64,000 nt of DNA from Streptomyces sp. NBC_00464 (GTDB taxonomy: Bacteria > Actinomycetota > Actinomycetes > Streptomycetales > Streptomycetaceae), in assembly GCF_036013915.1 (NCBI RefSeq), contig NZ_CP107899.1:8150001-8214000 (forward strand). Direction: 5' to 3'. Made by a program: the position numbers and the translations under genes. A model generated the notes under the pieces. It made no database searches. It had not been told where the DNA came from and saw only the letters and a list, made by a program, of their open reading frames with translations. Below, one piece after another: positions 27,125 to 44,411 of this stretch; within the stretch, counting starts at the first letter, position 1, and the number at the start of each line of letters is the position of its first letter.

Positions 27125-28456
27125 CTAGTTGACGGTGAAGCCCTGGTCCTTGCCGTACTTGATGCTCGCGTCCTGCCAGGCCTTCAGGCCGTCGGTGAGC
27201 TTGGTGGAGGAGACGTACGCCTTGCCCGCGGTGTCGTTGAAGATCGAGTTCGCGTAGACCTGGTAGGGCAGGTACGACCAGTCGGCGCCGACGTTACGGG
27301 CCGACTCGGCGAACACCTGGTTGGCCTTCTGGCCGCCGAAGTAGGGGAACGGGGCGTCGAGGAACGCCTTCGACTCCAGGTCGGCGCGGGTGGCCGGGAA
27401 GGCGCCTTCGGCGACACGGGCACTCGCACCGGCTCCGGTGGTGGCGAACTCCGTGAAGGCGTAGGCGAGTTCCTTGTTCTTGGCGGCCTTCGGCACGGCC
27501 AGTGAGCTGCCGCCGTTCTCCGCGCTCGCCTTGTCGCCCTTCGTCCACTGCGGCAGAGGGGCGACGCGCCAGTCGCCCGAGGCGGCCGCGACTCCGGAGG
27601 TGAGGTTGGCCGGCATCCAGGCGCCGATGGAGAGGGTGGCCAGGGATCCGTCGGCCAGGCCCTTGTACCAGGCGTCGCTCCACGAGCTGATGGGCGCGAC
27701 CAGCTTCTCGTCGAGGAGCTTCTGCCAGGTAGCGGTGTACTTCTTGGTGCCGGCGTCGTCGAAGGCGACGCTCACCTTCGTACCGTCGGTCTTGTAGGGG
27801 CGGCCGCCGGCCTGCCAGATGAGGCTGGTCGTGGCTCCGGCGTCACCGGTGTCGTTGGTGATGAATATCTTGGGGTCGGCCTTGTGGAGGGTCCGGGCTG
27901 CTTCCACGTATTCGTCCCACGTGGTCGGCACCTCGATGTGGTGCTTGTCGAAGACCTTCTTGTTGTAGAAGAAGGCCATCGGGCCGGAGTCCATGGGCAG
28001 GGCGTAAACCGCCTTGTCCGCGGTGACCGCGTTCCACGGTCCGGGCGTGAACGTCTTGCCGTACTTCTGGGCGCCATAGGGGGACAGGTCCTCGACGGAC
28101 TTGCCGATGGCGAACTGTCCGAGGGCGTAGTACTCGACCTGTGCGACGTCGGGGGCGCCGGAGCCGGCCGCTATCGCGTTCTGCAGGGCGGTGTACTGCT
28201 TGTCGCCGGTGCCCGCGTTGACCAGCTCGACGTCGACGTTGGGGTACTTCTTCTCGAAGTCCGCCGCCACCTTCTTGAGCGTGGGCTCCCAGGCCCACAC
28301 GGTCACCTTCCCGCCCTTCTCAAGTGCTGACTTGACGTCCTTGGGGGAGCTGTCGCCGGCATCGGAGTCCGAGCCGCCGCATGCCGTGGCCGTCAGCGCG
28401 AGGGCGGAGGCGACGGCGAGGGCGCCGAGGAGTCTGCGGGTGGAGTGAGTTCTCAT
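27125..28456 (-). CDS. CUT1 sugar-binding lipoprotein of the arabinogalactan island
   Basis: A 443-residue extracellular solute-binding protein (family 1) with lipobox LTATAC (lipidated Cys26). Seen are GGKVTVWAWEPTLKKVAADFEKK at the start of lobe 1 and NAIAAGSGAPDVAQVEYYAL, PMAFFYNKKVFDKHHIEVPTTWDEY and GSLATLSIGAWMP further on. It probably binds galacto-oligosaccharides released by the galactanases nearby, judged from operon context. It is the last gene of the permease-permease-binding protein operon (30459 to 27125), which has an operator of the LacI palindrome type upstream. The start ATG at 28456 has AGGAG upstream. An ATPase gene is absent, as expected if MsiK is shared. Confidence 0.92.
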   Translation of the reverse strand: MRTHSTRRLLGALAVASALALTATACGGSDSDAGDSSPKDVKSALEKGGKVTVWAWEPTLKKVAADFEKKYPNVDVELVNAGTGDKQYTALQNAIAAGSGAPDVAQVEYYALGQFAIGKSVEDLSPYGAQKYGKTFTPGPWNAVTADKAVYALPMDSGPMAFFYNKKVFDKHHIEVPTTWDEYVEAARTLHKADPKIFITNDTGDAGATTSLIWQAGGRPYKTDGTKVSVAFDDAGTKKYTATWQKLLDEKLVAPISSWSDAWYKGLADGSLATLSIGAWMPANLTSGVAAASGDWRVAPLPQWTKGDKASAENGGSSLAVPKAAKNKELAYAFTEFATTGAGASARVAEGAFPATRADLESKAFLDAPFPYFGGQKANQVFAESARNVGADWSYLPYQVYANSIFNDTAGKAYVSSTKLTDGLKAWQDASIKYGKDQGFTVN

Positions 28457-28533
28457 GGGATGTGCTCCTGGTCGATGGTGCGGCAGAGAAGAGGGGCAGG
28501 GGGAAGCGGAAGGGACGAGAAGGGGAGGCGGCG

Positions 28534-29529
28534 TCATTCCTTGACGCTGCCCGCGGCCAGGCCGGACTGCCAGTACCGCTGGAGCAGCAGGAAGGCCGCC
28601 ACGATCGGCACGATCGTCAGCAGGGAGCCGGTGATGATGAGGTCGAAGACGGCTTGGCCGCCGGCTGTCTGCGCCTGGGCGTTCCAGGCGTTGAGGCCGA
28701 GGGTCAGCGGGTACCAGTCGGGGTCCTTGATCATGATCAGCGGCAGGAAGTAGTTGTTCCACGTCGCGACCATCGAGAACAGGAGAACGGTGACGGTTCC
28801 CGGCATCAGCAGGGGCAGCGCGATCGTGAAGAAGGTGCGCAACTCGCTGGATCCATCGATCCGCGCGGCCTCCAGGAGCCCGGCAGGGACGGCCTCGGAG
28901 GCGAAGACCCACATGAGGTAGAGCCCGAAGGGTGAGATCAGGGACGGGATGATCACCGCCCAGGGCGTGTTCGTCAGCCCCATGTTGCTGAACATCAGGA
29001 AGGTGGGGACGGCGAGAGCGGTACCGGGGACGGCCACTGCTCCGATGACCACGGCGAACACGGCGCGCCGGCCGGGGAATTCGTACTTCGCGAGGGCGTA
29101 GCCGCCGAGAACGGCCAGAACGGTGGCGCCCCCGGCCCCGAGTGTGACGTACAGCAGTGTGTTGAGGAACCAGCGGACGAACACGCCGTCGTCGTAGGTG
29201 AGGGTGCGGGTGACGTTGTCCCAGAGGTTGAAGTCGTCGGCGAACCACAGGCCGAAGGAGTCGAAGAGCCCTCTCTGGCTCTTCGTGGCGTTGACGACGA
29301 GCCACAGCAGCGGGGCCAGTGTGTAGAGGACGACGACGCCGGTGACAAGGGTCAGCGGGATGCTGGGCCGCGGGTTGAGCGGTGTGTGCGGAGGCCGCCG
29401 GGACTTCCGTGCGGAGCGGCCGCGACGGGGGCGGGCGGTGGCTGACGGCGATGTGCGGGAGGAGCGAGGGCGAGGCCCGGGTGAGGAAGGGGAGGACCCG
29501 GCTGCGCCGGTGGTGAAGGAGGTGGTCAT
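28534..29529 (-). CDS. CUT1 ABC sugar permease (MalG-type)
   Basis: A 331-residue membrane protein. The first 50 residues are Ser/Arg/Pro-rich and low in complexity, an odd extension before the first membrane segment (PLTLVTGVVVLYTLAPLLWLVV). About six segments follow; the EAA loop is LLEAARIDGSSELRTFFTIALPLLMPG. It lies 3 bases after the MalF-type permease gene and is transcribed with it. A shorter start inside the basic extension is possible, but the spacing to the upstream gene favours this one. Confidence 0.9.
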   Translation of the reverse strand: MTTSFTTGAAGSSPSSPGPRPRSSRTSPSATARPRRGRSARKSRRPPHTPLNPRPSIPLTLVTGVVVLYTLAPLLWLVVNATKSQRGLFDSFGLWFADDFNLWDNVTRTLTYDDGVFVRWFLNTLLYVTLGAGGATVLAVLGGYALAKYEFPGRRAVFAVVIGAVAVPGTALAVPTFLMFSNMGLTNTPWAVIIPSLISPFGLYLMWVFASEAVPAGLLEAARIDGSSELRTFFTIALPLLMPGTVTVLLFSMVATWNNYFLPLIMIKDPDWYPLTLGLNAWNAQAQTAGGQAVFDLIITGSLLTIVPIVAAFLLLQRYWQSGLAAGSVKE

Positions 29530-29532
29530 GGG

Positions 29533-30459
29533 TCAGCCCTTCCGCATGCCGCGCAGCTGGACCGCGTAGGCGATGATCGCGGTGATCACGCCCATCACGA
29601 TGGCCACGGTCGCGGCGTAGTTGTGCTGCTGTCCGGCGAAGGACAGCGAGTACGTGTAGAGGTTCGGGGTGAAGTCGTTGGTGATCGCGTTGGGCGCGAG
29701 CTTCTGCAGGATGCTGGGCTCGTTGAACAGCTGGAAGCTGCCGATGACGGAGAAGATCGTGGCGATGACCAGCGCACTGCGGATCGCGGGGAGCTTGATC
29801 GAGGAGATGATCCGCCATTCGCCGGCTCCGTCGATGGCCGCGGCCTCGTAGAGCGAGCGGGGCACGACCTTGAGGGCCGAGTAGAAGATCAGCATGTTGT
29901 AGCCGACGAACTCCCAGGTCACGATGTTGCCGATCGAGGCCAGTACGAGTGAGGGGGAGAGCGGGTCGGGCAGTGACAGGCCGAAGGTGTCGTTGAGGTT
30001 GCCCACCAGCCCGAACTGCGTGCCGTAGATGAAGCCCCACATGAGGCTGGCGACGACGGCCGGAACGGCGTAGGGAAGGAAGACGGCGACGCGGAAGAAC
30101 GACCTCCCGTACAGCCTGCCGCTGTCGATCGCCAGGGCGACCAGCAGGGCGATGCCCAGCATGATCGGGACCTGGACGGCCAGGAAGAGACCGACGCGCC
30201 CCAGCCCTTCCCAGAACTGCGGGTCGGTCACCGCCTGTTGGTAGTTGTCCATGCCCACGAACGACCTGCCGCCGATCATCCGGTCCCGGAAGAGGCTCAG
30301 ATAGGCGGCGTATCCGATCGGTGCGAGGAAGACGAGTGCGAAGACCGCGACGAACGGGCCGACGAATCCCCATCCGGTCAGGCCGTACCGCCCAAGAGGG
30401 CGGCGCCGCCTCGACCGGGGTGGTCGGACTGCCTGGGCGGACGTCGACAGGAGCGTCAT
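29533..30459 (-). CDS. CUT1 ABC sugar permease (MalF-type)
   Basis: A 308-residue membrane protein with about six membrane segments (first at GWGFVGPFVAVFALVFLAPIG) and the EAA loop LYEAAAIDGAGEWRIISSIKLPAIR. First gene of the importer operon. The operator-like palindrome at 30556-30571 lies about 97 bases before the ATG, so uptake is expected to be controlled by the LacI protein encoded at 30861-31901. Confidence 0.92.
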   Translation of the reverse strand: MTLLSTSAQAVRPPRSRRRRPLGRYGLTGWGFVGPFVAVFALVFLAPIGYAAYLSLFRDRMIGGRSFVGMDNYQQAVTDPQFWEGLGRVGLFLAVQVPIMLGIALLVALAIDSGRLYGRSFFRVAVFLPYAVPAVVASLMWGFIYGTQFGLVGNLNDTFGLSLPDPLSPSLVLASIGNIVTWEFVGYNMLIFYSALKVVPRSLYEAAAIDGAGEWRIISSIKLPAIRSALVIATIFSVIGSFQLFNEPSILQKLAPNAITNDFTPNLYTYSLSFAGQQHNYAATVAIVMGVITAIIAYAVQLRGMRKG

Positions 30460-30809
30460 GGTGGTTCCTTGCGTCGTTGAGCGACCGGTCGGGAACGGAG
30501 CGGGGGAGGGGGACCTCAGGGCCGACGGGCCGGGAGAAGACTGGGCCGATGAGCCATGTTTACGTAATCATCGATAGCTGATGGTGGCACCACCCCGAGA
30601 CGGGCGTCAAGCACGATGCGGTAGCGAACGCAGGGGAATTGGGTGACGGCCGAGGGTGTGGTCGTGCCGTGCGGTGATTGAGTGCCCGGGGCACCGGCCC
30701 CTGATGAGGGGGCAACGCCGCAGGTGAGGGGGTGTATCGCGCTGCGGGTCAGGTGCCCGCTCGCGGCGGCGCCGTGAGCCGGGTCAGGGCTCGCGGGCGG
30801 GACGGAGTG
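30460..30809 (-). promoter_or_regulatory. Promoter region of CUT1 operon with LacI operator O1
   Basis: The 401-bp gap between the permease gene and the LacI gene holds the 16-bp palindrome ATGTTTACGTAATCAT at 30556-30571 (14 of 16 symmetric), matching the core TGTTTACG(T/A)(A/G)AACA seen at other promoters of the island. A/T-rich sequence around it fits a promoter. From about 30600 to 30800 nothing further is recognisable. Confidence 0.75.
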
Positions 30810-30841
30810 CGGCCCGCCCCCGTGGATACGCGGGCGGGCCG
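30810..30841 (-). terminator. Terminator after lacI-type gene
   Basis: A perfect 10-bp stem (CGGCCCGCCC / GGGCGGGCCG) with a 12-nt loop starts 20 bases past the LacI stop on the minus strand. Confidence 0.7.
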
Positions 30842-30860
30842 AGGTGTGAACGTACGCCGG

Positions 30861-31901
30861 TCAGGCGGGCGGAGGTGCGGTGCTGGCCCGGACCACGAGA
30901 GTGGGTTCGACGGCGAGGCGGTGCGGGCCGTTGGCGCGGTGCTCGATCTGCTCCAGGAGCAGGGTCACGCAATGCCGCCCCACCACATCGAAGTCCTGGT
31001 GGACCGTGGTCAGCGGCGGCTGGAAGAACCGGGCCTCGGGGACGTCGTCGAAGCCGGCCACGCTGACCTCGTCGGGTACCTTGCGCCCGGCCTCGTGCAT
31101 GGCGCGCAGCACCCCCAGCGCCATCTGGTCATTGGCCGCGAAAACGGCCGTGACGTCGGGAATCTTCGCCAGCGTCCGGCCTGCCAGATAACCGGACTCG
31201 GCGCTCCAGTCCCCGTACAGGGCCGGGTGCAGCGGAGCTCCGGCCGCGACGACGGTGCGCTCCCAGGTCTCGGCGCGCCGCCGGGCGGCGAAGGAGTCCC
31301 GCGGGCCACTGACGTGGTGCACCGTGCGATGCCCCATCTCCAGCAGGTGGGCGACCACGCTCTGCGTGCCGCGGGCCTGGTCGAAGTCGACGTTGGGATA
31401 GCGGTGCCCGGTGTCGCCGTCCGCGACGACGATCGGCATGGTCGGCGGAAGGAGCAGCGACGGTGTGTCGAGCATCTGCGACTCGATCAGCACGATGCCG
31501 TCGACGGACTGGAGCATGAGGTGCCGGAAGGCCTGCTGCACGGCGGCTTCGGTCTGCGCGCGGATACCCATGAAGTTGACGGAGAAGCCGGCCTCGCGTG
31601 CCGCGTCCGCGATGGCGGCGAGCGTCCGTGCGTTGCCGTGCGCGCCGACATCGAAGCTGACCACGCCCAGCGCCCCGAACTTGCCCGTGACCAGCGCACG
31701 AGCCGCCGCGTTGGGGCGGTATCCGAGCGCCTGCATCGCATCCAGCACCTTGGCGCGCGTCGTGGCATCCACGTTGTCGTGGTTGTTGGCCACACGCGAG
31801 ACGGTCTGGGAGGACACTCCCGCCCTCGCCGCGACCTCGGCCATCGAGGGCCACTTCCGGGGCGTGCGTGAGCGGGGTGCTCTCGTCGCCTTCTCCGCCA
31901 C
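30861..31901 (-). CDS. LacI/GalR-family repressor of the arabinogalactan island
   Basis: A 346-residue repressor with a LacI helix-turn-helix (SMAEVAARAGVSSQTVSRVAN, followed by the hinge YRPNAAARALVTG) and a type 1 periplasmic-binding-protein-like sugar domain (ALGVVSFDVGAHGNART ... VDGIVLIES ... VFAANDQMALGVLRAMHEAG ... VSVAGFDDVPEARFFQPPLTTV). The GTG at 31901 has AGAAGG 9 bases upstream; an ATG at 31943 with GGGAG is an alternative that adds 14 residues. Palindromes of the same type lie at 31963 (own promoter) and before the importer, GH43 and GH35 genes, so it is probably an autoregulated repressor relieved by a galactose-containing oligosaccharide. It is flanked by its putative targets on both sides. 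Confidence 0.93.
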   Translation of the reverse strand: MAEKATRAPRSRTPRKWPSMAEVAARAGVSSQTVSRVANNHDNVDATTRAKVLDAMQALGYRPNAAARALVTGKFGALGVVSFDVGAHGNARTLAAIADAAREAGFSVNFMGIRAQTEAAVQQAFRHLMLQSVDGIVLIESQMLDTPSLLLPPTMPIVVADGDTGHRYPNVDFDQARGTQSVVAHLLEMGHRTVHHVSGPRDSFAARRRAETWERTVVAAGAPLHPALYGDWSAESGYLAGRTLAKIPDVTAVFAANDQMALGVLRAMHEAGRKVPDEVSVAGFDDVPEARFFQPPLTTVHQDFDVVGRHCVTLLLEQIEHRANGPHRLAVEPTLVVRASTAPPPA

Positions 31902-31962
31902 AGTCGACCGCCTTCTCTTGAGGCCCGGCGCGGGTGCCCACATGGTGTGCTCCCGCGCTGCA

Positions 31963-31978
31963 ATGTTGACGCAAACAC
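31963..31978 (-). promoter_or_regulatory. LacI operator O2 at the lacI-type promoter
   Basis: ATGTTGACGCAAACAC is a variant of the island palindrome (core TGTTGACGCAAACA) and lies 20 to 60 bases before the possible starts of the LacI gene, where binding would block its own transcription. Confidence 0.65.
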
Positions 31979-32059
31979 GCCGCCCGGTCAAAAACCTGGT
32001 CCGTCTCTGCCTGACTCCTTGACAGTATCCCGCAGCCCTCACACACTTCCGGAAACATC

Positions 32060-32075
32060 GTGTTTACGAAAACAT
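32060..32075 (+). promoter_or_regulatory. LacI operator O3 in lacI/GH43 intergenic region
   Basis: GTGTTTACGAAAACAT carries both half-sites of the island palindrome. It lies 158 bases before the GH43 gene and 85 bases from O2 in the 331-bp divergent gap (31902-32232); looping between O2 and O3 is possible. Bases 32080-32232 show only the ribosome binding region. Confidence 0.75.
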
Positions 32076-32232
32076 TGCGTAGACCCGGTGATCGTTACGG
32101 TCCGGATCGGCCGGCCACATCTCCCCATCGGCCGGTCCTTCAGATGCCCCCACGCTCCGGGCCCCACGCGGTCCGTGGTCCTGCTGTCCGCGCGGAGCGC
32201 CCGGTCCGACGAACACCACGAGGTATCGCGAC

Positions 32233-33678
32233 ATGCGACTCAAGATCTCCGGAAGGGCGGCTCTGTTCTCCGCCCTTGCCGCACTTCTCCTCTCCTTGCT
32301 CACCTCCGTGGGCACCGCCCACGCCGCCGCGGTGACCATCGCCAACGGGACGCAGTTCACGGGATCCGACAACAGTCCCGTGCACGCCCACGGCGGTGGC
32401 GTACTCAAGGTCGGCGCGTACTACTACTGGTTCGGCGAGAACCGCAACGCCGACAACACCTTCCGGTACGTCTCCGCCTACCGCTCCACCGACCTGAAGA
32501 CCTGGGAGTTCCGCAACAACGTCCTGACCGAGGCTTCGGACCCGGAACTGGACTATGCCAACATCGAGCGCCCAAAAGTCGTCTACAACAGCTCCACCCG
32601 GCAGTTCGTGATGTGGATGCACAAGGAGAACGGCTCCGACTACGGCGAGGCGCGAGCCGCGGTCGCCGTGTCCTCCACGGTGGACGGTGACTACACCTGG
32701 CGGGGCAGTTTCCGGCCGCTGGGCCACATGTCCCGGGACATCACGACCTTCGTCGACACCGACGGCACCGGCTACATGATCTCGGCAGCCAACGAGAACG
32801 CGGACCTGCACGTGTACCGGCTGACCGCGGACTACACGGCGGTCGAGTCCCAGGTCCAGAAGCTCTGGGCGGGGCAGTCGCGTGAGGCCCCCGCCATGTT
32901 CGAGCGCGACGGCGTCTACTTCCTCCTCACCTCCGGTGCCACCGGCTGGTCCCCGAACCAGCAGAAGTACGCCACCGCCACCAGCATCACCGGCTCGTGG
33001 AGCGACCTGAAGGACGTGGGCGACCCCACGGCCTACCGGAGCCAGACCGCGTATGTCCTGCCGGTCCAGGGCACCCAGGGCACCGGGTACCTCTACATGG
33101 GGGACCGCTGGGGCAACGCCATGGGCGGCACGGTCTCCGACTCCCAGTACGTCTGGCTGCCGCTGACGTTCCCCAGCAGCACCAGCATGACGATGGACTA
33201 CTCGCCGCAGGTCACCGTCGACACCGCCGCCGGGACCGTGGCCGGTATGAACGTCGCCTGGGAGACGCTGACCGCGCACCAGAGCGGCAAGTGCGCCGAT
33301 GTGTCGAACTACGACTCGGCGGACGGCGCCCAGCTGATTCAGTGGGGGTGCGGCGCAGGCGTCAACCAGGACTTCTGGATCAAGAACCTGGGAACCGGCT
33401 ACGTCCAGATCATGGCCCGGCACAGCGGGAAGTGTCTCGACATCGCCGGTGCGTCGACCGCGGACGGGGCGTGGGCGGTGCAGAACACCTGCAACGGTTC
33501 CGCCTCCCAGCAGTGGAAGGCGCGGACGACGGACGTGGCCGGCTCCGTCGAACTCGTCGCCCGGCACAGCGGAAAGTGCCTCGACGTCGTGAACCAGTCC
33601 AGGGCCGACGGCACCGCTCTTGACCAGTGGACCTGCAACTCGGGCGACAACCAGAAGTGGGAGCGCGCGGCGGCCTGA
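32233..33678 (+). CDS. Secreted GH43-CBM13 exo-beta-1,3-galactanase-like enzyme
   Basis: A 481-residue secreted protein: Sec signal peptide (to about residue 32, SVGTAHA), GH43 five-blade propeller (about 35-345), then a CBM13 ricin B-type trefoil (about 350-480) with three repeats of the ARHSGKCLD...QW type. The HAHGGGVLKVGAYYYWFGE block near the N-terminus matches the GH43 exo-beta-1,3-galactanase branch (subfamily 24). Candidate catalytic residues are Glu218 (SREAPAMF, general acid) and Glu112 (IERPKVV). Gln271 (RSQTAY) would stand in place of the usual base Asp, as reported for characterised galactanases of that branch. It would release galactose or side-chain-bearing oligosaccharides from the beta-1,3-galactan backbone of arabinogalactan. 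Confidence 0.85.
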   Translation: MRLKISGRAALFSALAALLLSLLTSVGTAHAAAVTIANGTQFTGSDNSPVHAHGGGVLKVGAYYYWFGENRNADNTFRYVSAYRSTDLKTWEFRNNVLTEASDPELDYANIERPKVVYNSSTRQFVMWMHKENGSDYGEARAAVAVSSTVDGDYTWRGSFRPLGHMSRDITTFVDTDGTGYMISAANENADLHVYRLTADYTAVESQVQKLWAGQSREAPAMFERDGVYFLLTSGATGWSPNQQKYATATSITGSWSDLKDVGDPTAYRSQTAYVLPVQGTQGTGYLYMGDRWGNAMGGTVSDSQYVWLPLTFPSSTSMTMDYSPQVTVDTAAGTVAGMNVAWETLTAHQSGKCADVSNYDSADGAQLIQWGCGAGVNQDFWIKNLGTGYVQIMARHSGKCLDIAGASTADGAWAVQNTCNGSASQQWKARTTDVAGSVELVARHSGKCLDVVNQSRADGTALDQWTCNSGDNQKWERAAA

Positions 33679-33760
33679 TCGCCCGTGCCCGCAGCGCCGC
33701 CGGTCCCGCTGTACCGTCCGCTGCCGGACCGGCGGCGAACGGGCCACCGCACCGGGCCGC

Positions 33761-33825
33761 CCGTGCCACACCAGAGCCACCCGTGCCACACCCGGGCCGC
33801 CTGGCCTCCGGCCGGGAGGCCCGGG
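33761..33825 (+). repeat. Direct repeat and hairpin between GH43 and GH30 genes
   Basis: CCGTGCCACACC occurs twice (33761-33772 and 33781-33792, 20-bp period). It is followed by a strong imperfect hairpin, CCCGGGCC (33791-33798) to GGCCCGGG (33818-33825), which may terminate or attenuate the GH43 transcript. No LacI-type palindrome was seen in this 240-bp gap. Confidence 0.5.
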
Positions 33826-33918
33826 ATCCGCGGAAGGCCCGGGTGGCACGCGCAGGGTCCCGGTGGCCCTGCCCCTTCCCCCCACCGCTCAGCCTCCGAG
33901 CCTCTCAAGGAGCACTTC

Positions 33919-36366
33919 GTGTTTCCCACCCGCACCCGATCGGATCCCTCAAGGCTCCGGTTCGGTTCCCCCCGCACGCCCCGAAGGGCCACCGCCGCTC
34001 TGGGCGCTGCCACGGCCCTCGCCGTGACCGCGCTCACGGCCGCCGGGCCCGTGCCCGTCCCGGCGATCGCAGCGGAGCCGCCGACCGCGGCGCTCACGAT
34101 CCGCCTCGACCCCAGCTACCAGCACCCGTCCTTCGAGGGCTGGGGCACCGCGCTGGCCTGGTTCGCCCGTGTCACCGGCGGATGGCCCGACGCCCAGCGC
34201 AAACGCCTCGCGGACGATCTCTATGGCGCGGACGGTCTCGGCTTCACCGTCGCCCGCTACAACATCGGTGGTGGCGACAGCCCCGAGACCACCCCCTACA
34301 TGCGGCCCGGCGCGGACGTGCCCGGCTACTGGAGCCGGCCCGGACCGGAGTCCCCCGACTGGTGGGACCCGGACCGGGCGGACCACTGGAACGCCTCCGC
34401 CGACGCGAACCAGCAGTGGTGGCTCTCGGCGGCGAAGGCCCGCGGCGCCACCACCTTCGAGGCGTTCTCCAACTCCGCCCCGTACTTCATGACCAACAGC
34501 CAACTGGCCTCCGGCGCGGCCAACGGCTGGGAGGACAACCTCCGCTCCGACCAGTACGACCGCTTCGCCGGCTACCTGACCGGCTCGCTCCAGCGGGCCC
34601 AGTCCGCCACCGGCGTCACCTTCGACTCCATCTCACCGGTCAACGAGCCCGACACCGACTACTGGCATGCCGGCGGCCGCCAGGAGGGTTCGCACTGGGA
34701 CCCGGCCTCCCAGGCGCGCATGATCACCACCCTGCGCGCCGCGATGGACGCCAAGGGCGTCACGACTCCGATCGCTTCCATGGACGAGACGAACCCGGAG
34801 AAGTTCCGGTCGGACTGGGAGGCATACGCTCCCGCCGTCCGATCCACGGTGGACCGGCTCAACACGCACACGTACGGGACGAACGGCCGCACCGGGGTGC
34901 GGGACATCGCCAAGGGGGAGGCCACACCGCTGTGGATGTCCGAGGTGGACGTCGGCGGCAGTGTCCCGCAGAGCTTCACATCCATGAGTCCCGCGCTCGA
35001 CCTCGCCCAGCGCATCAACGACGACGTGCGCGAGCTGGAGCCGCGCGCCTGGGTCCTGTGGCAGGCGGTCGAGGACTACGAGAACATGACGCCGGCCCAC
35101 GAGAACTCCAACTGGGGACTGATCCAGACGGACTTCACCCCCGACGACGCGGCGACCGAGCCGCTGCGCAAGAACAAGAAGTACTGGGCCATGGCGAACT
35201 ACAGCCGCTTCGTCCGCCCCGGCGCCCGGATCATGAACACCGACGACCCGCAGACCCTGGCCGCGGTCCGGCCGGACGGCGGCGTGGTCGTCGTCCACAC
35301 CAACAGCACCGGCGAGGAGCGCGAAGTCACCCTGAACCTGGACGGCTTCACGACCGCCGCCGACGGACCCGTCGAGCGCTGGACGACCGACGCCACGAAG
35401 AACCTGCAGCGTGATGCCGATGCGGCCGTGGCGGGCCGCACCCTCAAGGCCGTCGTCGGCCCAGGCTCCGTCACCACGTTCGTACTCCCCACGGTCGGCG
35501 GAGTGAACACGACGGCGACGACCGCCCCCACCGGCGCGCCGCGCCAACTGCTCAACGACAACAGCGGCAAGGCCCTCGCCACCGTGAGCGGCGCGAGCAA
35601 CGTCGTGCAGCGCACCTCCGCCCCGGCCGACAGCGCACAGCAATGGACCTTCACCAAGGTGTCCGCCACCGACTGGGGCAGTTCCGCCGCCTACCGCCTC
35701 ACCAACGTCGGGACGGGCAAGGCGCTCTCCGTGTCGGACGGGGTCCTGACCGTCGCGTCGCCCGGATCGTCCACGGCGCAGCAATGGATCCGCTCCACCA
35801 CGGGCGACGGCCACAGCACTCTGATCAACAGCGCCACCGGACAACTGCTGGACGTCACGAACGCCTCGACAGGTGACGGGGCACCCGTCGGCGTCTATCG
35901 GCCCACGACCGGCAGCAACCAGTCCTGGTCCCTGCCCGGCGCGGCGCCGGACGACTGGGGCCCGCTCTCCTTCCGGCACAGTTCCCAGTGTCTCGATGTG
36001 AGCGGCGCGGCGGCCGGCGACGGTGCGGCCGTCGTCCAGTACGGCTGCACCACCGGCACGAACCAGCAATGGTCGCTGCGCTCCACCGGGGGCGGTTATG
36101 CCAACGTCGTCGCCCGCCACAGCGGCAAGTGTCTCGACGTGAGTGACGCGTCCGCATCCGACGGCGCCGAGGTCGTCCAGTACGCCTGCAACGGCGGCCG
36201 GAACCAGGAGTGGGCGGTACGCACGACGAGTGACGGGAACCTCACGCTCACGGCCCGGCACAGTGCCAAGTGCCTGGACGTGAACGGCGGTTCCGTGACA
36301 GCCGGAGCGTCGGTCGTTCAGCGGACCTGCGACGGTGCGGTGAGCCAGCAGCTGCGGCAGGGCTGA
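33919..36366 (+). CDS. Secreted GH30-type endo-beta-1,6-galactanase-like enzyme with CBM13
   Basis: An 815-residue secreted protein. The GTG start has AAGGAG 6 bases upstream; the signal peptide covers about residues 1-50. A (beta/alpha)8 barrel with a beta-sandwich (about 55-530) shows the acid/base Glu243 in SPVNEPDTDYWHAGGRQEG and the nucleophile Glu342 in LWMSEVDVGG. The NEP...YW.AGGRQEG block is typical of bacterial endo-beta-1,6-galactanases now placed in GH30. Two ricin-type modules follow: a divergent one (about 535-670) and a classical CBM13 with three HSxxCLDV...QW repeats (about 680-815). It would cut the beta-1,6-galactan side chains of plant arabinogalactan proteins. The GH43 gene lies directly upstream. 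Confidence 0.87.
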   Translation: MFPTRTRSDPSRLRFGSPRTPRRATAALGAATALAVTALTAAGPVPVPAIAAEPPTAALTIRLDPSYQHPSFEGWGTALAWFARVTGGWPDAQRKRLADDLYGADGLGFTVARYNIGGGDSPETTPYMRPGADVPGYWSRPGPESPDWWDPDRADHWNASADANQQWWLSAAKARGATTFEAFSNSAPYFMTNSQLASGAANGWEDNLRSDQYDRFAGYLTGSLQRAQSATGVTFDSISPVNEPDTDYWHAGGRQEGSHWDPASQARMITTLRAAMDAKGVTTPIASMDETNPEKFRSDWEAYAPAVRSTVDRLNTHTYGTNGRTGVRDIAKGEATPLWMSEVDVGGSVPQSFTSMSPALDLAQRINDDVRELEPRAWVLWQAVEDYENMTPAHENSNWGLIQTDFTPDDAATEPLRKNKKYWAMANYSRFVRPGARIMNTDDPQTLAAVRPDGGVVVVHTNSTGEEREVTLNLDGFTTAADGPVERWTTDATKNLQRDADAAVAGRTLKAVVGPGSVTTFVLPTVGGVNTTATTAPTGAPRQLLNDNSGKALATVSGASNVVQRTSAPADSAQQWTFTKVSATDWGSSAAYRLTNVGTGKALSVSDGVLTVASPGSSTAQQWIRSTTGDGHSTLINSATGQLLDVTNASTGDGAPVGVYRPTTGSNQSWSLPGAAPDDWGPLSFRHSSQCLDVSGAAAGDGAAVVQYGCTTGTNQQWSLRSTGGGYANVVARHSGKCLDVSDASASDGAEVVQYACNGGRNQEWAVRTTSDGNLTLTARHSAKCLDVNGGSVTAGASVVQRTCDGAVSQQLRQG

Positions 36367-36410: not shown

Positions 36411-36431
36411 ATTCCGGTCAGCTGCCGGAGG

Positions 36432-38180: not shown

Positions 38181-38608
38181 GTACGAGTGCTCCTGTGCTG
38201 AGGTGAGGTGCGCTGTCGCGTGGCCGGGACGAGCCCGTCGACAGACATGTTTACGTGAACACTCGCAGATGGCAAGCTTCCGGGGCTCGATGGGCCGGGA
38301 GGTCGGCGAACAAGGGGGAGCGCGGGTGCTCCCGGCCCTGTGGTGAGGGTGGACTCCGGCCGGGCAGGTCTCATGCGCCGAGAGGGCGATTCCACAAGGT
38401 GCAACATAACTGCACAGATGTTGACGCCAGTTGAGGGGCGTGCTGCACTGAATCCAACACGCAAGTCGTGTCACGCTCAGGAATGTTTACGCTCCCAGGT
38501 GGTGTGCGCACCAGTGGCCGGGACGCCGCTCGGGTCGCGCGTGCCGCAAGGTCCAGTGCTCTCCGACTGGCTGTCAGCTTCCCCCACCAGAGCCGCAGGA
38601 GTTCCCCC
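38181..38608. promoter_or_regulatory. Divergent GH35/GH110 regulatory region with LacI operators O4 and O5
   Basis: This 428-bp gap contains ATGTTTACGTGAACAC at 38247-38262 (O4, near-perfect palindrome) on the GH35 side. On the GH110 side are ATGTTTACGCTCCCAG at 38483-38498 (O5, only the left half conserved) and a second half-site, ATGTTGACGCCAGTTG, at 38418-38433. A separate dyad, GTGCAACATAACTGCAC (38399-38415), lies between them and may belong to another regulator. Confidence 0.7.
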
Positions 38609-41398
38609 ATGCAGTTCTTTCTCCGTTGGCCCGTGCTCGCGCTGGGCGCGGCTCTGGCGGTCACGGCCACCACACTGCTCGGGCCCCTGCCCGCGGGTGC
38701 CGCCCGAGCAGCCGCCGAGACGGTGGTCGAGGTGACTGCGTTCGGCGCCGACCCGACGGGCCGGAGCGACAGTGCCGCCGCAGTCGCCAAGGCCGTGCGG
38801 CACGCCGGGACGATCGAGGGTCCGGTACGGATCGTCTTCCCCCACGGCACCTATCAGATCTACCCGGAGCAGGCCGAGGTCCGCGAGCTGTACGTCTCCA
38901 ACACCGTCGGTGCCGACCAGTCCTACAAGGACAAGCGGATCGGCATCCTTCTTGAGGACATGGACGACGTCACCGTTGACGGCGACGGATCGCATCTCCA
39001 GTTCCACGGGCTGATGACCACCTTTGCGGCGATCCGCTCCCAGCGCGTCTCCGTCAGGAACTTCAGCTTCGACTACACCGCCCCGAAGGTGGTCGACGCA
39101 ACCGTCAGCGAGTCCGGGGTGGCCGACGGCCACGCCTACCGCGTACTGAAGATCCCTGCGGGCAGCGGATTCTCGGTCGGAGACCGGCAGGTGACCTGGC
39201 TGGGGGAGACCAGCCCGGCCACCGGCCGGCCGTACTGGTCAGGAGTCAATGGCATGCAGTACACCCAGATCCACGACCCCACGGCGAAGCGGACCTGGCG
39301 CGGCTCCAATCCGCTGTTCGACGACGTGGCCTCCATGACCGATCTCGGTGCCCAGAAGCTGCGCATCGACTACAGCACCGGGACAGCGCCGAGTGACCGC
39401 GGACTGGTCTACCAGATGCGCCAGACCACGCGGGACACCCCCTCGGCCCTCCTCTGGGAGTCGAAGGACATCACCGTCCAGGACCTGAAGGCCCGCTATC
39501 TGCATGGCTTCGGCTTCGTGGGACAGCTCAGCGAGAACGTCACGATCAAGGGCAACGAATTCCGTACGGACCCTGCCTCCGGACGCACCACGGCCGGATT
39601 CGCCGACTTCGTGCAGATGTCGGGGGTCAAGGGGCAGGTGACCATCACCGACAACGTGTTCGACGGCGCGCACGACGACGCGATCAACATCCACGGCACC
39701 TATCTGGAGGTGACCGGACGGCCCGCGCCCAACGCGCTCACGCTGGAGTACCGGCACAACGAGACGGCCGGATTCCCGCAGTTCCACCCCGGTGACACGG
39801 TGGAGATCGTGGACAAGCGCACGATGCTGCCGGTGCCCGGCACAACGGCCGGGGTCGTGTCCGTCGACGGCCCCTCCGGCCAGGACCACGACAAGTCCCT
39901 GACCAGCATGACGGTCACCTTCGACCGGACCGTCCCCGACTCGGTCAGCCCCCGGAACTTCGTGGTGGAGAACACCACGTACACCCCGTCGGTCGAGATC
40001 AGCGGCAACACCTTCCGCTCCATCCCCACCCGCGGCGTCCTGGTCACCACACGCAGGCCCGTCATCATCGAGGACAACGTCTTCGACGGCATGTCGATGG
40101 CCAGCATCTTCATCTCCTCCGACGCCTACCAGTGGTACGAGTCCGGGCCGGTCACCGATGTACTGATCCGCCGCAACACCTTCCAGCGGCCGGCCGGTCC
40201 CGTGATCTTCGTCGAGCCGACCAACCAGGCCGTGGATCCCGCACACCCCGTGCACCGCAACATCCGCATCGAGGACAACACCTTCAGGACCGGCGATGTG
40301 CGACTGCTCGACGCCAAGAGCGTGGGCGGCATCACGTTCAAGTCGAACGAGGTCTCCCGGCTCGACCGCAACACCTCTTTCGCCGCCGAGGCGAAGAACC
40401 TGTGCCCGGCTCCGGGCACCACGACTACAGTGCGTACGGTCACCACGGCCGCGCCGTACTCCACCTCGCTGTTCTCCTACCGCGGCTCCTCCGGGGCCGT
40501 CATCAGCGGCAACGACTTCGACAACGGCCTCAACCTGCGAGCCGACCTCGATGCCACCGACCCTGCGCAGGTCACCGGCGACGAGGTCGTGAACGGCGCC
40601 GACCACGTGCTGCCGCTGCTGCCGACGACGAGCTACACCAGCAGCAACGCGACCATCGCCGCTGTCGACGCGACCGGAAAGGTCACGGCAGGGTCCACCG
40701 GCACGGCCGTCATCACACCCGTCACGCACAGCCAACTCGGGGACACCACAGGTGTGCCGATCAAGCTCACCGTCGGCGCGGACCCCGCCTCGCCCGCCTG
40801 CACCAAGCCGCTCGGCCTGAACACCGACGCGTGGTCCGTGGTCCGCGACCTGCCCGATCACCGTGCCGTCCTGCCGGGTGACAACCTCCAGCTCACCCCC
40901 GGCGGACGGGGATTCCTGTGGGCGGGCGCCAACAGCGCCCACAACCTCGTCCTCACCGGCACCGGCTCCGGAAACGGCACCGCCACGGTCAGGATGAGCG
41001 GCCGCACGCAGCGCGGCTACATGGAAGCCGGCCTCCTCCTCTACCGCGGCGACGACGACTACCTCGCCCTCCAGCGCAAGCACAACGCCGGCAGCCCCAC
41101 CCTCACTCTCTCCTCGGAACAGGGAGGCCGGGCACAGGAACCGGACCGTGCACCCGACCCCGGCCAGGACGACCTCTGGCTGCGCCTGCAGCGCACCGGC
41201 GACAGCGTCACCGCCTCGTACTCCCTCGACGGCACCGGTTTCACCCGCCTCGGCGAACCGGTCGATGCCTCGTGGCTGCAGGATGCGCGCTTCGGTGTGC
41301 TCGCCGAGGTGGAGAGCATCTCCGGCTCCGACACCCCGTTCCGCTTCAACGACTTCACCGTCGACGGCACTCCGGTGTCCTTCACCTCCGCGTGGTGA
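38609..41398 (+). CDS. Secreted GH110 alpha-1,3-galactosidase-like enzyme
   Basis: A 929-residue secreted protein. Signal peptide to about residue 34 (PAGAARA); a right-handed parallel beta-helix (about 40-640) begins VTAFGADPTGRSDSAAAV and has GAHDDAINIHGTYLEVTG with the adjacent Asp356-Asp357 pair expected at the GH110 active site. A Big2-like immunoglobulin domain (about 665-730, SSNATIAAVDATGKVTAG) follows, then a concanavalin-like C-terminal module (about 735-925) with MEAGLLLYRGDDDYLALQRK. GH110 enzymes known from Streptomyces and Bacteroides remove terminal alpha-1,3-linked galactose. Arabinogalactan is mainly beta-linked, so the natural substrate here could be an alpha-galactosyl cap or another glycan. 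Clear ribosome binding site GCAGGAG. Confidence 0.85.
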   Translation: MQFFLRWPVLALGAALAVTATTLLGPLPAGAARAAAETVVEVTAFGADPTGRSDSAAAVAKAVRHAGTIEGPVRIVFPHGTYQIYPEQAEVRELYVSNTVGADQSYKDKRIGILLEDMDDVTVDGDGSHLQFHGLMTTFAAIRSQRVSVRNFSFDYTAPKVVDATVSESGVADGHAYRVLKIPAGSGFSVGDRQVTWLGETSPATGRPYWSGVNGMQYTQIHDPTAKRTWRGSNPLFDDVASMTDLGAQKLRIDYSTGTAPSDRGLVYQMRQTTRDTPSALLWESKDITVQDLKARYLHGFGFVGQLSENVTIKGNEFRTDPASGRTTAGFADFVQMSGVKGQVTITDNVFDGAHDDAINIHGTYLEVTGRPAPNALTLEYRHNETAGFPQFHPGDTVEIVDKRTMLPVPGTTAGVVSVDGPSGQDHDKSLTSMTVTFDRTVPDSVSPRNFVVENTTYTPSVEISGNTFRSIPTRGVLVTTRRPVIIEDNVFDGMSMASIFISSDAYQWYESGPVTDVLIRRNTFQRPAGPVIFVEPTNQAVDPAHPVHRNIRIEDNTFRTGDVRLLDAKSVGGITFKSNEVSRLDRNTSFAAEAKNLCPAPGTTTTVRTVTTAAPYSTSLFSYRGSSGAVISGNDFDNGLNLRADLDATDPAQVTGDEVVNGADHVLPLLPTTSYTSSNATIAAVDATGKVTAGSTGTAVITPVTHSQLGDTTGVPIKLTVGADPASPACTKPLGLNTDAWSVVRDLPDHRAVLPGDNLQLTPGGRGFLWAGANSAHNLVLTGTGSGNGTATVRMSGRTQRGYMEAGLLLYRGDDDYLALQRKHNAGSPTLTLSSEQGGRAQEPDRAPDPGQDDLWLRLQRTGDSVTASYSLDGTGFTRLGEPVDASWLQDARFGVLAEVESISGSDTPFRFNDFTVDGTPVSFTSAW

Positions 41399-41430
41399 AG
41401 CCGCGCCGCACTCGCGCGGCGGCTCTCACC

Positions 41431-41546
41431 GGCACTCTCACCGGAGCCGGCGGGAAATGCCTCGACGTCACCGACGACGCCACCACGGCAGGCAACACGC
41501 TGCGTTTGAGGTCCTGCTACGGCAGCTCCGCCCAGCAGTGGGTCCT
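41431..41546 (+). pseudogene. Orphan CBM13 (ricin-type) remnant
   Basis: Directly after the GH110 stop, in a different frame, the DNA encodes one ricin-type repeat: TLTGAGGKCLDVTDDATTAG then LRLRSCYGSSAQQWVL. It has no start of its own and the rest of the trefoil is missing; the sequence to 41657 shows no further similarity apart from the ribosome binding site of the next gene. It may be what is left of a CBM13 that was fused to the GH110 enzyme or to the CBM13-GH35 enzyme downstream. Confidence 0.65.
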
Positions 41547-41657
41547 GTGCCCCCTCAGCACTCTTCCCGGCACTCCGGCCACGACCGGTCCGCGTACCGG
41601 TGGACGAACGGCGCGTGGGACACCCGCATCGACGATGCAACCAGTGAAGGAGCCGAC

Positions 41658-44411
41658 ATGGACGCCCCGAAGAGCAATGCGCACAGCGGACCGGCCCGCC
41701 GTAGCGTGATCCGGATACTGGGGGCGGGGGCTGTGGCCCTTGCCGTCGGTCCGGTCCTCGGCGGCCTGATCCGCCCCTCACGGGCGTACGCGGCGGACCG
41801 TGTGACCGGAGCCCCGATGATCCTCACGAACGTGCACAGCGGCTGTGTGCTCGACGTCTACGGCCGCGCGTCGGACGACGGCGCTGCGATCATCCAGTGG
41901 ACGGCTACCGGCGTCTCCAACCAGGAATGGACCGCGGTCGACCAGGGCGATGGCTGGGTGACCATCGCCTCGATGAACTCGGGCAAGGTGCTCGATGTGT
42001 CGGGCGGCCGGACCGACGACGGCGCGCGGGTTATCCAGTGGAACGACAGCGGCGCCGCCAACCAGCAGTGGAGGCTGGACGACGCCGGGCAGGGCCGGGT
42101 GAAGATCGTCGGCAGAGCGAGCGGGAAGCTCCTCTCGGTCGTGGAGTCCGCGACCACCGCCGGCGCCGCGATCGAGATCCGCTCCGACACCGACGACCCG
42201 GCGCAGCTCTGGACGGCGACGCCCGCGCCGTACCGCCTGGACGCCACCGTCACCGAGTCGCGGCCCGACACGCCCCTTGCCAACGCCGGTGGCGTCGCGG
42301 GCGGGGTCACCTACGGCGTGACGCGCAACGGCTGGTCCCGCGACGGTGTGCCCTGGTACCCGGTGAGCGGTGAGTTCCACTACGTCCGCCATCCCGCCGA
42401 ACTCTGGGAGCGGGAGCTGGGCAAGATGCGCGCCGCCGGCGTGGGCATCGTGGCCACCTACGTGTTCTGGAACCACCACGAGCAGACCGAAGGCACCTTC
42501 GACTGGACGGGACGCAAGGACCTGAGAGCCTTCACGGCTGCCGCTCAGCGGCAGGGCATGATGGTCTGGCTCCGCGTGGGCCCGTTCATCAACGCCGAGG
42601 CCACGGACGGTGGAATTCCCTCCTTCGCCCTGCCGGGTTCACGTACCGATGACGCGGGGTACCTGGCCAAGGTCGACGCCTACTTCGCCCGGATCGCCGC
42701 TCAGCTCGGTGGGATGTGGGCCAAGGACGGCGGCCCCGTCGTCGGCATCCAGCTCGAGAACGAGTTCGCCAACGGCGACCCGGCACACATCACCACCCTG
42801 CGGCAGATGTGCACCGCCCACGGCATGGTGGTGCCCTATTACACGGTCACGGCCAACTCCAGATTCGACAAGGACACCGCGATCCCCCTCCAGGGCGCCT
42901 ACACCTACCGGGGATGGGAGCGGGGCGCGGGCACCTCGGCCACGTCCGGGTTCATCTACGGCACCGACGAGTGGACCGCCAACACCGACATCGGCGGGGC
43001 GACCTACGACACGCTCGACTACCCCCGCGGGTTCTGCGAGCTCGGCACGGGCAGCCCGATGCGCGGGAACGACCGCTTCCTCGTCGAGCGCACCTATGTG
43101 GCGGCGCACGCGTACGACAGTGTGGGGCGAGGCGCCAACTACCTGGGCTACTACATGTTCCACGGGGGAACCCAGATGCCGGGCCTGAGCGGAGACTGGC
43201 CGCTCACCTACGACTTCCAGGCCCCGCTGGGCGAGTTCGGACAGACCCGGGACTCCTACCGGCACTACCGGCGCCTCCACACGTTCGTCACCACCTGCGC
43301 CGAGGAACTCATCAGGACGCGGATCGCCCGTGACCCCGGACAGATCATGGACCCGGCGCAGACCCGCCGGCTGCGCTACATCGGCCGCTTCGACACCAAC
43401 GGTCGAGGCTTCGCCTTCGTCAACAACACCCAGCGCAACGTCACCCTGCCGGCCCGGTCCGACGTCCAGATCCGCGTGAACACAGCCGGCGGCACGGTCA
43501 CGTTGCCCGCCAAGCCGCTGACGATGCCGGAGGGCCGCTACAACTTCTTCCCCGTCATGACCGACCTGAACGGCGTCGACCTCCGCTGGGCCACGCTCGA
43601 ACCGCTGGCGAGGCTCACCGGCGACGACGTCCCCACCTGGGTCTACTGGGCCCCGGACTGGACGGACCGCACACTCGCCCTGGACAGCACCACCGAGATC
43701 ACCGGCGAACTGGGGACGGTCACCCAGACCTTGACCGGGAACGAGCGCATCGTCACGCTTCCCTCCGGGCAGCGCACCTCGCTGCTGGTGCGCAGGGCCG
43801 GTGCCACAGCCCCCTCCGCCAGGATCATCGTGCTCACCGAGACCGAGTCGCTGAGCGCGGTGGTCACTGCGCTCAACGGCCGCGACCGCCTCGTGCTCAC
43901 CGGCTCGGCGAACGTGACCGGCGTCCAGCCGGCCGTGCGGTTCGGCGGCCCCGCCGGCAGCACCGTCACCGCCGACATCTTCCCCGCCGAAGGCCTGGCC
44001 CCGGCCGCGGGGTGGAAGGCGGCTCGGACGGAGAAGCCCTTCACGCGCTACAGCTACCAGCTCCCCAAGGCCCCGGCCGCTCCGCAGCTGACCTCCCTGG
44101 GCGCCGGCCGGTGGCGTATCAACAGCGATGCGACGGCTCTCGCCGGCCTGGCCGAGGCCCATCTCGTGCTCGACTACCGGGGCGGCGAAGCGACGCTGAC
44201 CGGCGCGGGAACCAAGATCACGAACGACCTCTACCACGGTGACACCTGGACGATTGATCTGAAGCGCATCGACGAAGCCGCCCGCGCCGACCTGATCCTG
44301 GAGGTCTCCACCTGGGACGACGCGATCCAAGGCGTCCCACGCCCCTCCGGCACCCTTCCCGGTCTGCCCTCATGGACCTGGAAGCCACAGCATGAAGCCA
44401 CTTGGCGCTGA
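41658..44411 (+). CDS. Tat-exported CBM13-GH35 beta-galactosidase
   Basis: A 917-residue exported enzyme: Tat-type signal (ARRSVIRILGAGAVALAVG, cleavage near SRAYAA), an N-terminal CBM13 trefoil (about 50-185, repeats with QQW/QEW), then a divergent GH35 barrel starting VPWYPVSGEFHYVRHPAELW. The acid/base is Glu369 in GIQLENEFANGD; the probable nucleophile is Glu461 in GFCELGTGSP. MFHGGTQMPG replaces the usual HGGTNFG. C-terminal beta-domains (about 560-910) include a Walker-free lectin-like tail. It presumably trims beta-galactosyl ends outside the cell, unlike the cytosolic GH35 at 36432. AAGGAG precedes the ATG. It is likely cotranscribed with GH110. Confidence 0.88.
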   Translation: MDAPKSNAHSGPARRSVIRILGAGAVALAVGPVLGGLIRPSRAYAADRVTGAPMILTNVHSGCVLDVYGRASDDGAAIIQWTATGVSNQEWTAVDQGDGWVTIASMNSGKVLDVSGGRTDDGARVIQWNDSGAANQQWRLDDAGQGRVKIVGRASGKLLSVVESATTAGAAIEIRSDTDDPAQLWTATPAPYRLDATVTESRPDTPLANAGGVAGGVTYGVTRNGWSRDGVPWYPVSGEFHYVRHPAELWERELGKMRAAGVGIVATYVFWNHHEQTEGTFDWTGRKDLRAFTAAAQRQGMMVWLRVGPFINAEATDGGIPSFALPGSRTDDAGYLAKVDAYFARIAAQLGGMWAKDGGPVVGIQLENEFANGDPAHITTLRQMCTAHGMVVPYYTVTANSRFDKDTAIPLQGAYTYRGWERGAGTSATSGFIYGTDEWTANTDIGGATYDTLDYPRGFCELGTGSPMRGNDRFLVERTYVAAHAYDSVGRGANYLGYYMFHGGTQMPGLSGDWPLTYDFQAPLGEFGQTRDSYRHYRRLHTFVTTCAEELIRTRIARDPGQIMDPAQTRRLRYIGRFDTNGRGFAFVNNTQRNVTLPARSDVQIRVNTAGGTVTLPAKPLTMPEGRYNFFPVMTDLNGVDLRWATLEPLARLTGDDVPTWVYWAPDWTDRTLALDSTTEITGELGTVTQTLTGNERIVTLPSGQRTSLLVRRAGATAPSARIIVLTETESLSAVVTALNGRDRLVLTGSANVTGVQPAVRFGGPAGSTVTADIFPAEGLAPAAGWKAARTEKPFTRYSYQLPKAPAAPQLTSLGAGRWRINSDATALAGLAEAHLVLDYRGGEATLTGAGTKITNDLYHGDTWTIDLKRIDEAARADLILEVSTWDDAIQGVPRPSGTLPGLPSWTWKPQHEATWR

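Follow-up and report, generated by a model that had tools for sequence, protein, structure and literature searches.

Within a 64,000-nucleotide stretch of Streptomyces sp. NBC_00464 (contig NZ_CP107899.1, positions 8,150,001-8,214,000; hereafter the window), taken from a 9-Mb genome that is 99.9% complete (G+C 69%), we identified an island at positions 27125-44411 that we consider, with a probability of roughly 85%, to serve, under LacI control, in the utilisation of the beta-1,3/1,6-galactan found in plant type II arabinogalactan. The gene content, the enzyme families with their key residues, and an operator that is conserved in relatives all point in this direction. Genes were called from open reading frames (ORFs), codon-position analysis and Pfam searches, and together these confirmed nine genes in the island. 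The start codons of the genes for LacI, GH30, both GH35 proteins and GH110 were picked by eye on the basis of leader and context, the longest ORFs beginning further upstream (at 32042 for LacI). Enzymes referred to below as exported are predicted to be so from their sequences.

The first of the two predicted galactan-degrading enzymes is an exported GH43 protein with a C-terminal CBM13 domain (32233-33678, plus strand; Pfam GH43 67.3 against a cut-off of 32.2). Among solved structures it is nearest to 3vsf (462 bits), followed by 7bys (200 bits), a chain annotated as galactan 1,3-beta-galactosidase. In the available portions of PMC7939473, 3VSF is treated as a GH43_24 enzyme, eight subsite -1 residues are described as conserved in this subfamily, which lacks an Asp base and uses Gln263 in its place, and beta-1,6-galacto-oligosaccharides are given as one product of a GH43_24 enzyme. 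All eight residues (Glu57, Glu102, Arg103, Tyr126, Asp158, Glu208, Trp229 and Gln263 in Pc1,3Gal43A numbering) are identical in the window protein when it is aligned to 7bys with phmmer, at positions 69, 112, 113, 137, 169, 218, 239 and 271, respectively. The protein is, by these matches, a predicted GH43_24 exo-beta-1,3-galactanase, which confirms the features that an earlier note on this DNA had ascribed to it.

The second is an exported GH30 protein, likewise with a C-terminal CBM13 domain (about 33919-36366, plus strand; Pfam GH30_2 99.9 against a cut-off of 27). It is nearest to 24td, a secreted endo-beta-1,6-galactanase of GH30_5 (168.9 bits), followed by 3clw (88.9 bits), a GH30_4 protein according to the accessible text of PMC13431644, and all remaining solved GH30 chains score 64.8 bits or less. 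Of twenty residues taken from PMC13431644 and mapped through the alignment, 11 are identical (Trp123, Asn216, Glu217, Gln229, Tyr294, Gly299, Arg300, Glu320, Trp350, Pro355 and Trp359), and these include the catalytic Glu217 and Glu320, Asn216, and the galactose-selecting Gln229 of the inserted fourth loop, as expected of GH30_5. However, the other nine are changed (Lys114Trp, Trp165Phe, Trp185Asp, Trp222Tyr, Ser297Thr, Arg301Thr, Asp302Gly, Trp341Glu and Asp354Glu). At subsite -2, in loop 8, Trp350, Pro355 and Trp359 align as identical and Asp354 is replaced by Glu, and the same loop has nine extra residues relative to the solved GH30_5 enzyme; the secondary sugar site formed by Trp341, Arg301 and Asp302 is not kept, Glu, Thr and Gly being aligned with these positions. 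As the same source, in the part available, describes the GH30_5 loops as free of major insertions and the secondary site as a likely feature of the subfamily, we term the window enzyme GH30_5-like rather than GH30_5.

The earlier note had held that placement of the GH43 and GH30 proteins in subfamilies with other specificities would refute its view of the island. The GH43 protein fits GH43_24 and the GH30 protein is nearest to GH30_5, although some features of the latter subfamily are missing. Its more specific claim, that the GH30 protein has endo-beta-1,6-galactanase features, is upheld insofar as the closest solved relative is a GH30_5 enzyme that acts endo, but the endo mode itself has become less secure. 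A serious alternative, to which we give somewhat less than an even chance, is that the protein is an exo-beta-1,6-galactobiohydrolase, which would clip galactobiose from chain ends and feed the importer directly. Such an activity is reported for the GH30 enzyme Bl1,6Gal of Bifidobacterium longum in the consulted part of PMC7889515, although that of PMC13431644 calls the B. longum enzyme endo. The nine extra residues of the cleft-shaping loop 8, the replacement of the reducing-end-side Trp222 by Tyr and the specificity of the importer, which fits a galactobiose product, all favor an exo mode; the nature of the closest solved enzyme speaks for an endo-galactanase.

The importer belongs to the CUT1 type and consists of a predicted lipoprotein binding protein (27125-28435, minus strand) and two permeases, permG (28534-29529, minus strand; Pfam BPD_transp_1 53.7 bits) and permF (29533-30459, minus strand; 44.4 bits). 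The binding protein matches the chains 6q5g (391 bits) and 6h0h (390.4 bits) far better than the next chain in the PDB (135.7 bits), with 201 of 409 aligned residues identical (49%). In the alignment, both Trp residues of the VWAW motif are retained, the chain numbering not being tied to Trp63, which occupies position 2 of the Bal6GBP site (Arg49 in GL-BP). The available text of PMC8106489 identifies 6H0H as Bal6GBP, with a Kd of 92 nM for beta-1,6-galactobiose and 300-fold weaker binding of the beta-1,3 isomer. No other single result points as strongly to the imported sugar as this likeness. That sugar is predicted to be beta-1,6-galactobiose, in keeping with the beta-1,6-galacto-oligosaccharides that a GH43_24 enzyme is described as producing; the import of galacto-oligosaccharides, proposed earlier in general terms, is thereby supported more sharply. 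A single 1082-amino-acid gene at 27125-30373 was considered and rejected: the C-terminal 436 residues of this ORF correspond to the binding protein, and the rest is a reading of the permease genes in a different frame. The importer operon showed no ATPase gene; such importers of Streptomyces usually rely on the shared ATPase MsiK. The cytosolic GH35 beta-galactosidase (36432-about 38177, minus strand; Pfam GH35 381.8 against a cut-off of 27), in which no signal peptide was seen by eye, has 4mad as its best PDB match (593.7 bits).

To place the island among its relatives, we used a related-locus scan, in which the best 80 of 471 relatives were kept, yielding 78 loci with up to 10 kb on each side, several of them ended by contig ends. 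Gene content was scored at thresholds of at least 45% identity and at least 35% coverage, and individual loci are designated by an L number. The closest contig is from Streptomyces, and its GH43 protein is 96% identical to that of the window. All seven core genes occur together in 14 of the 78 loci, and clustering thus exceeds chance. The GH30 catalytic domain is present in 25 loci, and 24 of these align with the window GH30 at 67-92% identity, L004 having been left out of the alignment as a shorter match.

The LacI-family regulator is encoded at 30861-about 31946 on the minus strand (Pfam LacI 57.9 bits, Peripla_BP_3 127.4 bits), and a palindrome scan of the intergenic gaps revealed a common 16-bp motif, ATGTTTACGTAAACAT. 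Putative operators lie before the importer operon (ATGTTTACGTAATCAT, 30556-30571), on the lacI side of the gap between lacI and GH43 (ATGTTGACGCAAACAC, 31963-31978), between these two genes (GTGTTTACGAAAACAT, 32060-32075) and before the cytosolic GH35 gene (ATGTTTACGTGAACAC, 38247-38262). All four were recovered by palindrome and genome scans. In the 9-Mb genome, the operator is found at only five places with up to three mismatches, four of them in the island (30556, 31963, 32060 and 38247), while the fifth, at 270227, falls inside a predicted ORF. The window contains five copies of the half-site ATGTTKACG, where 0.27 would be expected, and none of 100 shuffles reached five. These half-sites (30556, 31963, 38247, 38418 and 38483) all lie in island gaps given the starts chosen here, and the last two constitute putative half-operators before the GH110 gene: ATGTTGACG (38418-38426), which differs by one base in L003, and ATGTTTACG (38483-38491), which is kept there.

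The operator is also conserved in relatives. We counted 63 sites in 23 of the 25 GH30-bearing loci and 12 sites in 6 of the 53 others; the reversed pattern gave none in either group. Within 500 bp, it precedes permF in all 22 related loci with this gene (as exact ATGTTTACGTAATCAT in 12), the cytosolic GH35 gene in 15 of the 19 loci having it, lacI in 22 of 26, and the GH43 gene in 23 of 78 overall and 19 of 25 where GH30 is present. None of the 75 sites lies inside any matched gene, and the position of the operator is kept in loci whose GH43 proteins are 73-96% identical to that of the window. A local LacI regulon, defined by a palindromic operator common to the promoters of the locus, is therefore supported, and with it the matching repressor of the earlier note, whose predicted sites precede the importer, lacI/GH43 and cytosolic GH35 genes. 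For a wider regulon that takes in arabinofuranosidases encoded elsewhere, we found no support at up to three mismatches, a more degenerate operator not having been searched. Eight relatives (L007, L015, L018, L022, L023, L028, L029 and L031) have, besides the LacI at GH43, a second LacI (53-55% identical) by the importer permease, and this too is preceded by the same operator.

Along with the substituted residues and the loop 8 insertion of GH30, several results weigh against our interpretation of the island. No alpha-L-arabinofuranosidase or beta-glucuronidase was found among the scanned proteins of the locus, which thus falls short of a complete type II arabinogalactan locus. The operator consensus was derived from the island itself, so that its enrichment in the genome is partly circular, and the reversed-pattern control gave one place; the relatives are a better test of the operator than its own genome, yet they share common descent. 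The intergenic placing of the sites depends on the by-eye starts of LacI, cytosolic GH35 and GH110, the longest ORFs covering several sites, and the half-sites before GH110 fall short of full palindromes. Furthermore, 4mad, the best match of the cytosolic GH35, is an enzyme that we take to be beta-1,3-selective, so beta-1,6-galactobiose might instead be split by the product of one of three GH42 genes elsewhere in the genome. Finally, 53 of the 78 GH43 relatives are without GH30 within 10 kb and 49 of these also lack the importer, holding only GH43 and sometimes LacI (the four with an importer are L008, L021, L032 and L033); a GH43 gene alone thus does not imply such a locus.

With regard to the absent activities, the genome encodes, outside the locus, one AbfB domain, one GH51 C-domain, five further GH43 places and the three GH42 places. 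The proposal that arabinofuranosidases are encoded elsewhere is thus borne out for the GH51 C-domain and the AbfB domain. None of these places coincides with the sole other operator match, at 270227. A search for GH79, aimed at the beta-glucuronidase proposed to be encoded elsewhere, gave no match in this genome, but it gave none in the control genomes either.

Immediately to the left of the island, and absent from the earlier note, lies a CUT2 importer of the L-arabinose type (23035-26793, minus strand, by Pfam), with a permease (23035-24072), a double ATPase (24069-25712) and a binding protein (25753-26793) whose best PDB match is 4kzk, an L-arabinose-binding protein (101 bits). The gene for this binding protein recurs beside the importer in L004 (90% identical). 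Genes for L-arabinose-type binding proteins are found in 8 of the 25 GH30-bearing loci and in none of the 53 others, and L015 has such a gene, along with an ABC ATPase, inside the island. Arabinose uptake probably belongs to a wider system, and what is linked to the island probably extends to the left of 27125.

The unexpected element is a predicted GH110 alpha-1,3-galactosidase that apparently sits in an arabinogalactan locus. The exported protein (about 38603-41398, plus strand) has a C-terminal concanavalin-like domain; its Pfam matches are confined to general beta-helix and C-terminal-domain models, with the GLAA-B barrel at 23.9, below its cut-off of 28, and there is no NCBIfam match. We assign it to GH110 because it matches the solved alpha-galactosidases 8yk1-8yk3 with 553-568 bits (568 to 8yk2), and others in the list of matches are named GH110. 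We take 8yk1-8yk3 to be AgaBb of Bifidobacterium bifidum. Three aspartates (Asp297, Asp320 and Asp321, in first-row positions) are invariant in 10 aligned actinobacterial GH110 proteins and have the spacing of the catalytic Asp321, Asp344 and Asp345 of PdGH110B (PMC7939477, as far as available), the correspondence being by spacing only. According to the same portions of that paper, all characterised GH110 enzymes act on alpha-1,3-galactose; their -1 subsite is conserved, while the plus subsites decide the substrate, and a conserved +1 arginine is argued to select a galacto-configured sugar. This argument disfavors arabinofuranose in the +1 subsite. We offer only tentatively, as something rather unlikely, the idea that the window GH110 is an arabinogalactan enzyme that acts ahead of galactan cleavage by taking off alpha-1,3-linked galactose caps (for example, those in the alpha-D-Galp-(1->3)-L-Ara units of gum arabic), and that it would, by analogy, do the job for which the GH36 alpha-galactosidase of B. 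longum is placed. If this is true, the GH110 family, whose characterised members work on the alpha-1,3-galactose found in blood-group B, alpha-Gal and carrageenan-type glycans, acquires a substrate of plant origin, perhaps with an arabinofuranose bound in the +1 subsite, and a family known from blood-group and seaweed glycans provides a tool for reading arabinogalactan side chains.

The ninth gene (about 41658-44411, plus strand) encodes an exported CBM13-GH35 protein with a Tat-like leader, judged by eye, and a divergent GH35 domain (Pfam GH35 184 bits; 113 bits to the best GH35 in the PDB). The preceding gap, at 41399-41657, contains in a third frame a CBM13-like stretch, seen by eye (GKCLDV...NTLRLRSCYGSSAQQW), which resembles a decayed carbohydrate-binding repeat.

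Both this gene and that for GH110 are accessory, being rare and partly decayed in relatives. GH110 is present in only 3 of the 25 GH30-bearing loci. Searches of the whole genomes to which 25 of the island loci belong gave a GH110 match at E <=0.001 in 10, four of them strong: beside the island with an internal stop in L003, a C-terminal part in L006, at the island at a contig end in L009, and on another contig in the L015 genome. A survey of 295 genomes of the genus found 47 with a GH110 match, 13 of them strong (E <1e-160; the genome studied here is counted and one match is C-terminal only). The exported GH35 query finds some match in all 25 genomes, GH35 and CBM13 domains being common; among the matches listed, however, it is full-length in just one (71% identity, L015 genome), where it closely follows the importer on the same contig as the island; the L004 genome has a 73-residue remnant of it near the cytosolic GH35 gene. 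In view of this scattered occurrence, we conclude that the core is stable while GH110 and the exported GH35 come and go. The earlier note was correct that both genes are present in the island; their share in its function is less certain.

These data bear on whether the two genes are passengers beside an arabinogalactan locus, acting on other glycans, an explanation that we regard as possible but doubtful. In its favor are the presence of a strong GH110 match in only 4 of the 25 island genomes and 13 of the 295 genus genomes, the single full-length exported GH35 among the matches listed for the 25, and the different LacI (29-31% identical) that adjoins 7 of 12 strong GH110 loci within the short stretch around the gene. 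Conversely, three relatives have GH110 or a remnant of it within or next to the island: L003, in the same arrangement as the window; L006, where it comes after the binding protein gene; and L009, where it comes ahead of GH43. Half-operators precede it in both the window and L003, one of them with a base changed in the latter, and in the L015 genome the exported GH35 is encoded next to the importer, on the contig that carries the island.

GH110 also raises the question of whether the target is another Gal-beta-1,3/1,6 glycan, of an animal or fungal glycoconjugate, instead of plant arabinogalactan. Blood-group B and alpha-Gal glycans are known targets of GH110 enzymes (PMC7939477, available parts), and the binding protein is distantly related to a galacto-N-biose/lacto-N-biose binder (135.7 bits). 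However, the 28 scanned window proteins, which represent part of the window ORFs, include no match to GH20, GH29, GH33 or GH101, GH43_24 with GH30_5 is a published arabinogalactan-degrading pair (PMC8424115 and PMC13431644, in the sections available), and L-arabinose-type binding proteins travel with the locus. We consider such a target very improbable.

For the favored substrate, plant type II arabinogalactan, the following model can be proposed. The exported GH43_24 enzyme would shorten the beta-1,3 backbone from the chain end, passing over side chains, and the exported GH30 would cut the beta-1,6 side chains, with the CBM13 domains probably holding both enzymes on the substrate. Their products, galactose and mainly beta-1,6-galactobiose, would pass from the Bal6GBP-type lipoprotein to the two CUT1 permeases, which would have to borrow an ATPase encoded elsewhere in the genome, and the imported galactosides would be split by the cytosolic GH35. 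LacI would act on the 16-bp operator before the importer, lacI/GH43 and cytosolic GH35 genes and would leave it on binding a galactoside that has been imported. GH110 and the exported GH35 would be optional extras, probably removing terminal alpha-1,3-Gal and beta-Gal, and arabinose freed by enzymes encoded elsewhere would likely be taken up by the adjoining L-arabinose-type importer.

Several neighbors of the island were also annotated. To its right, a run of minus-strand genes (45048-50195; Pfam/NCBIfam) encodes a GntR regulator, a KDPG aldolase, a KDG-type kinase, a DapA-family protein and an IlvD/EDD sugar-acid dehydratase, and looks like an oxidative aldose route; the score of the dehydratase against the L-arabinonate dehydratase model is 818.6, below the cut-off of 882, and two broader subfamily models are passed. 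Joining this cluster to the island is unsupported: at a threshold of at least 45% identity, the aldolase, kinase, DapA-family, IlvD, GntR and GH2 genes occur in none of the 25 GH30-bearing loci, but under a looser cut L017 has a kinase (41%) and an aldolase (45%), so that some link may exist. A second L-arabinose-type CUT2 importer, likewise absent from the earlier note, follows (50336-54299, plus strand), with an ORF (51367-53268) between its binding protein and permease. Large GH2 beta-galactosidase-type genes flank the region at 4411-8376 (with a laminin-G domain) and 54426-58148. At 16007-22914, a sulfatase gene is grouped with those for a CUT1 binding protein, a permease and a formylglycine-generating-enzyme-like protein and with an unassigned ORF, perhaps as a separate locus for a sulfated sugar.

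In the relatives, other ORFs included 62 unassigned ones in 11 loci, and 20 of these, from eight loci, were scanned. L032 yielded a GH95-CBM13 protein along with an aldo/keto reductase and a galactokinase; in L015 and L038, parts of CUT2-type importers were recognised; and the remaining scanned ORFs gave nothing fitting arabinogalactan. The GH95-CBM13 gene of L032 (2149-5031) lies beside that for the aldo/keto reductase, with the galactokinase across the island, and this set might fit fucosylated arabinogalactan.

The kinds of enzyme found here are already known, and the use of gum arabic by Streptomyces avermitilis with a GH43 and GH30 pair is published. The present analysis adds the probable identity of the imported sugar, a local operator, a division of the genes into a stable core and accessory ones, the importers of the arabinose type and a caveat regarding GH30. 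The island offers nearly the whole of a regulated pathway for a plant cell-surface and gum glycan, in soil bacteria known for polymer decay, and it comes with a named importer specificity and an operator, both open to simple binding and reporter assays. A search by title and abstract opening, with most subscription journals outside its reach, found no paper describing, in Streptomyces, an arabinogalactan locus that includes an importer and a LacI.

S. avermitilis has the same pair, an exo-beta-1,3-galactanase of GH43 and the endo-beta-1,6-galactanase Sa16Gal30A of GH30_5 (PMC8424115), and is described together with B. longum as using gum arabic with it (PMC13431644); in the portions available, these accounts concern the enzymes and not a locus with importer and repressor. 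Compared with the S. avermitilis enzyme, the window GH30 has nine extra loop 8 residues and a CBM13 of its own, and the principal residues of the secondary site are missing from it. The type II arabinogalactan system of B. longum, as far as its description was accessible, likewise combines an exo-beta-1,3-galactanase (Bl1,3Gal, GH43_24) with a GH30 enzyme (Bl1,6Gal). Its gum arabic gene cluster has the GH39 enzyme GAfase with a GH36 alpha-galactosidase; the window island also has an alpha-galactosidase, but this is GH110, an inverting beta-helix enzyme, and the 28 scanned window proteins include no GH39 or GH36 match. The galacto-oligosaccharide locus of Bifidobacterium animalis subsp. lactis contains Bal6GBP, 49% identical to the window binding protein, but its enzyme is GH42 rather than GH35, and the available text of PMC8106489 names no secreted galactanase there. 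Finally, the bga cluster of Bifidobacterium breve (GH2, LacI and a symporter, for beta-1,3-galacto-oligosaccharides) likewise joins a LacI to a galactosidase for arabinogalactan fragments, although it is, in the parts of its description available, a three-gene cluster without a secreted galactanase and has a symporter where the window island has an ABC importer.

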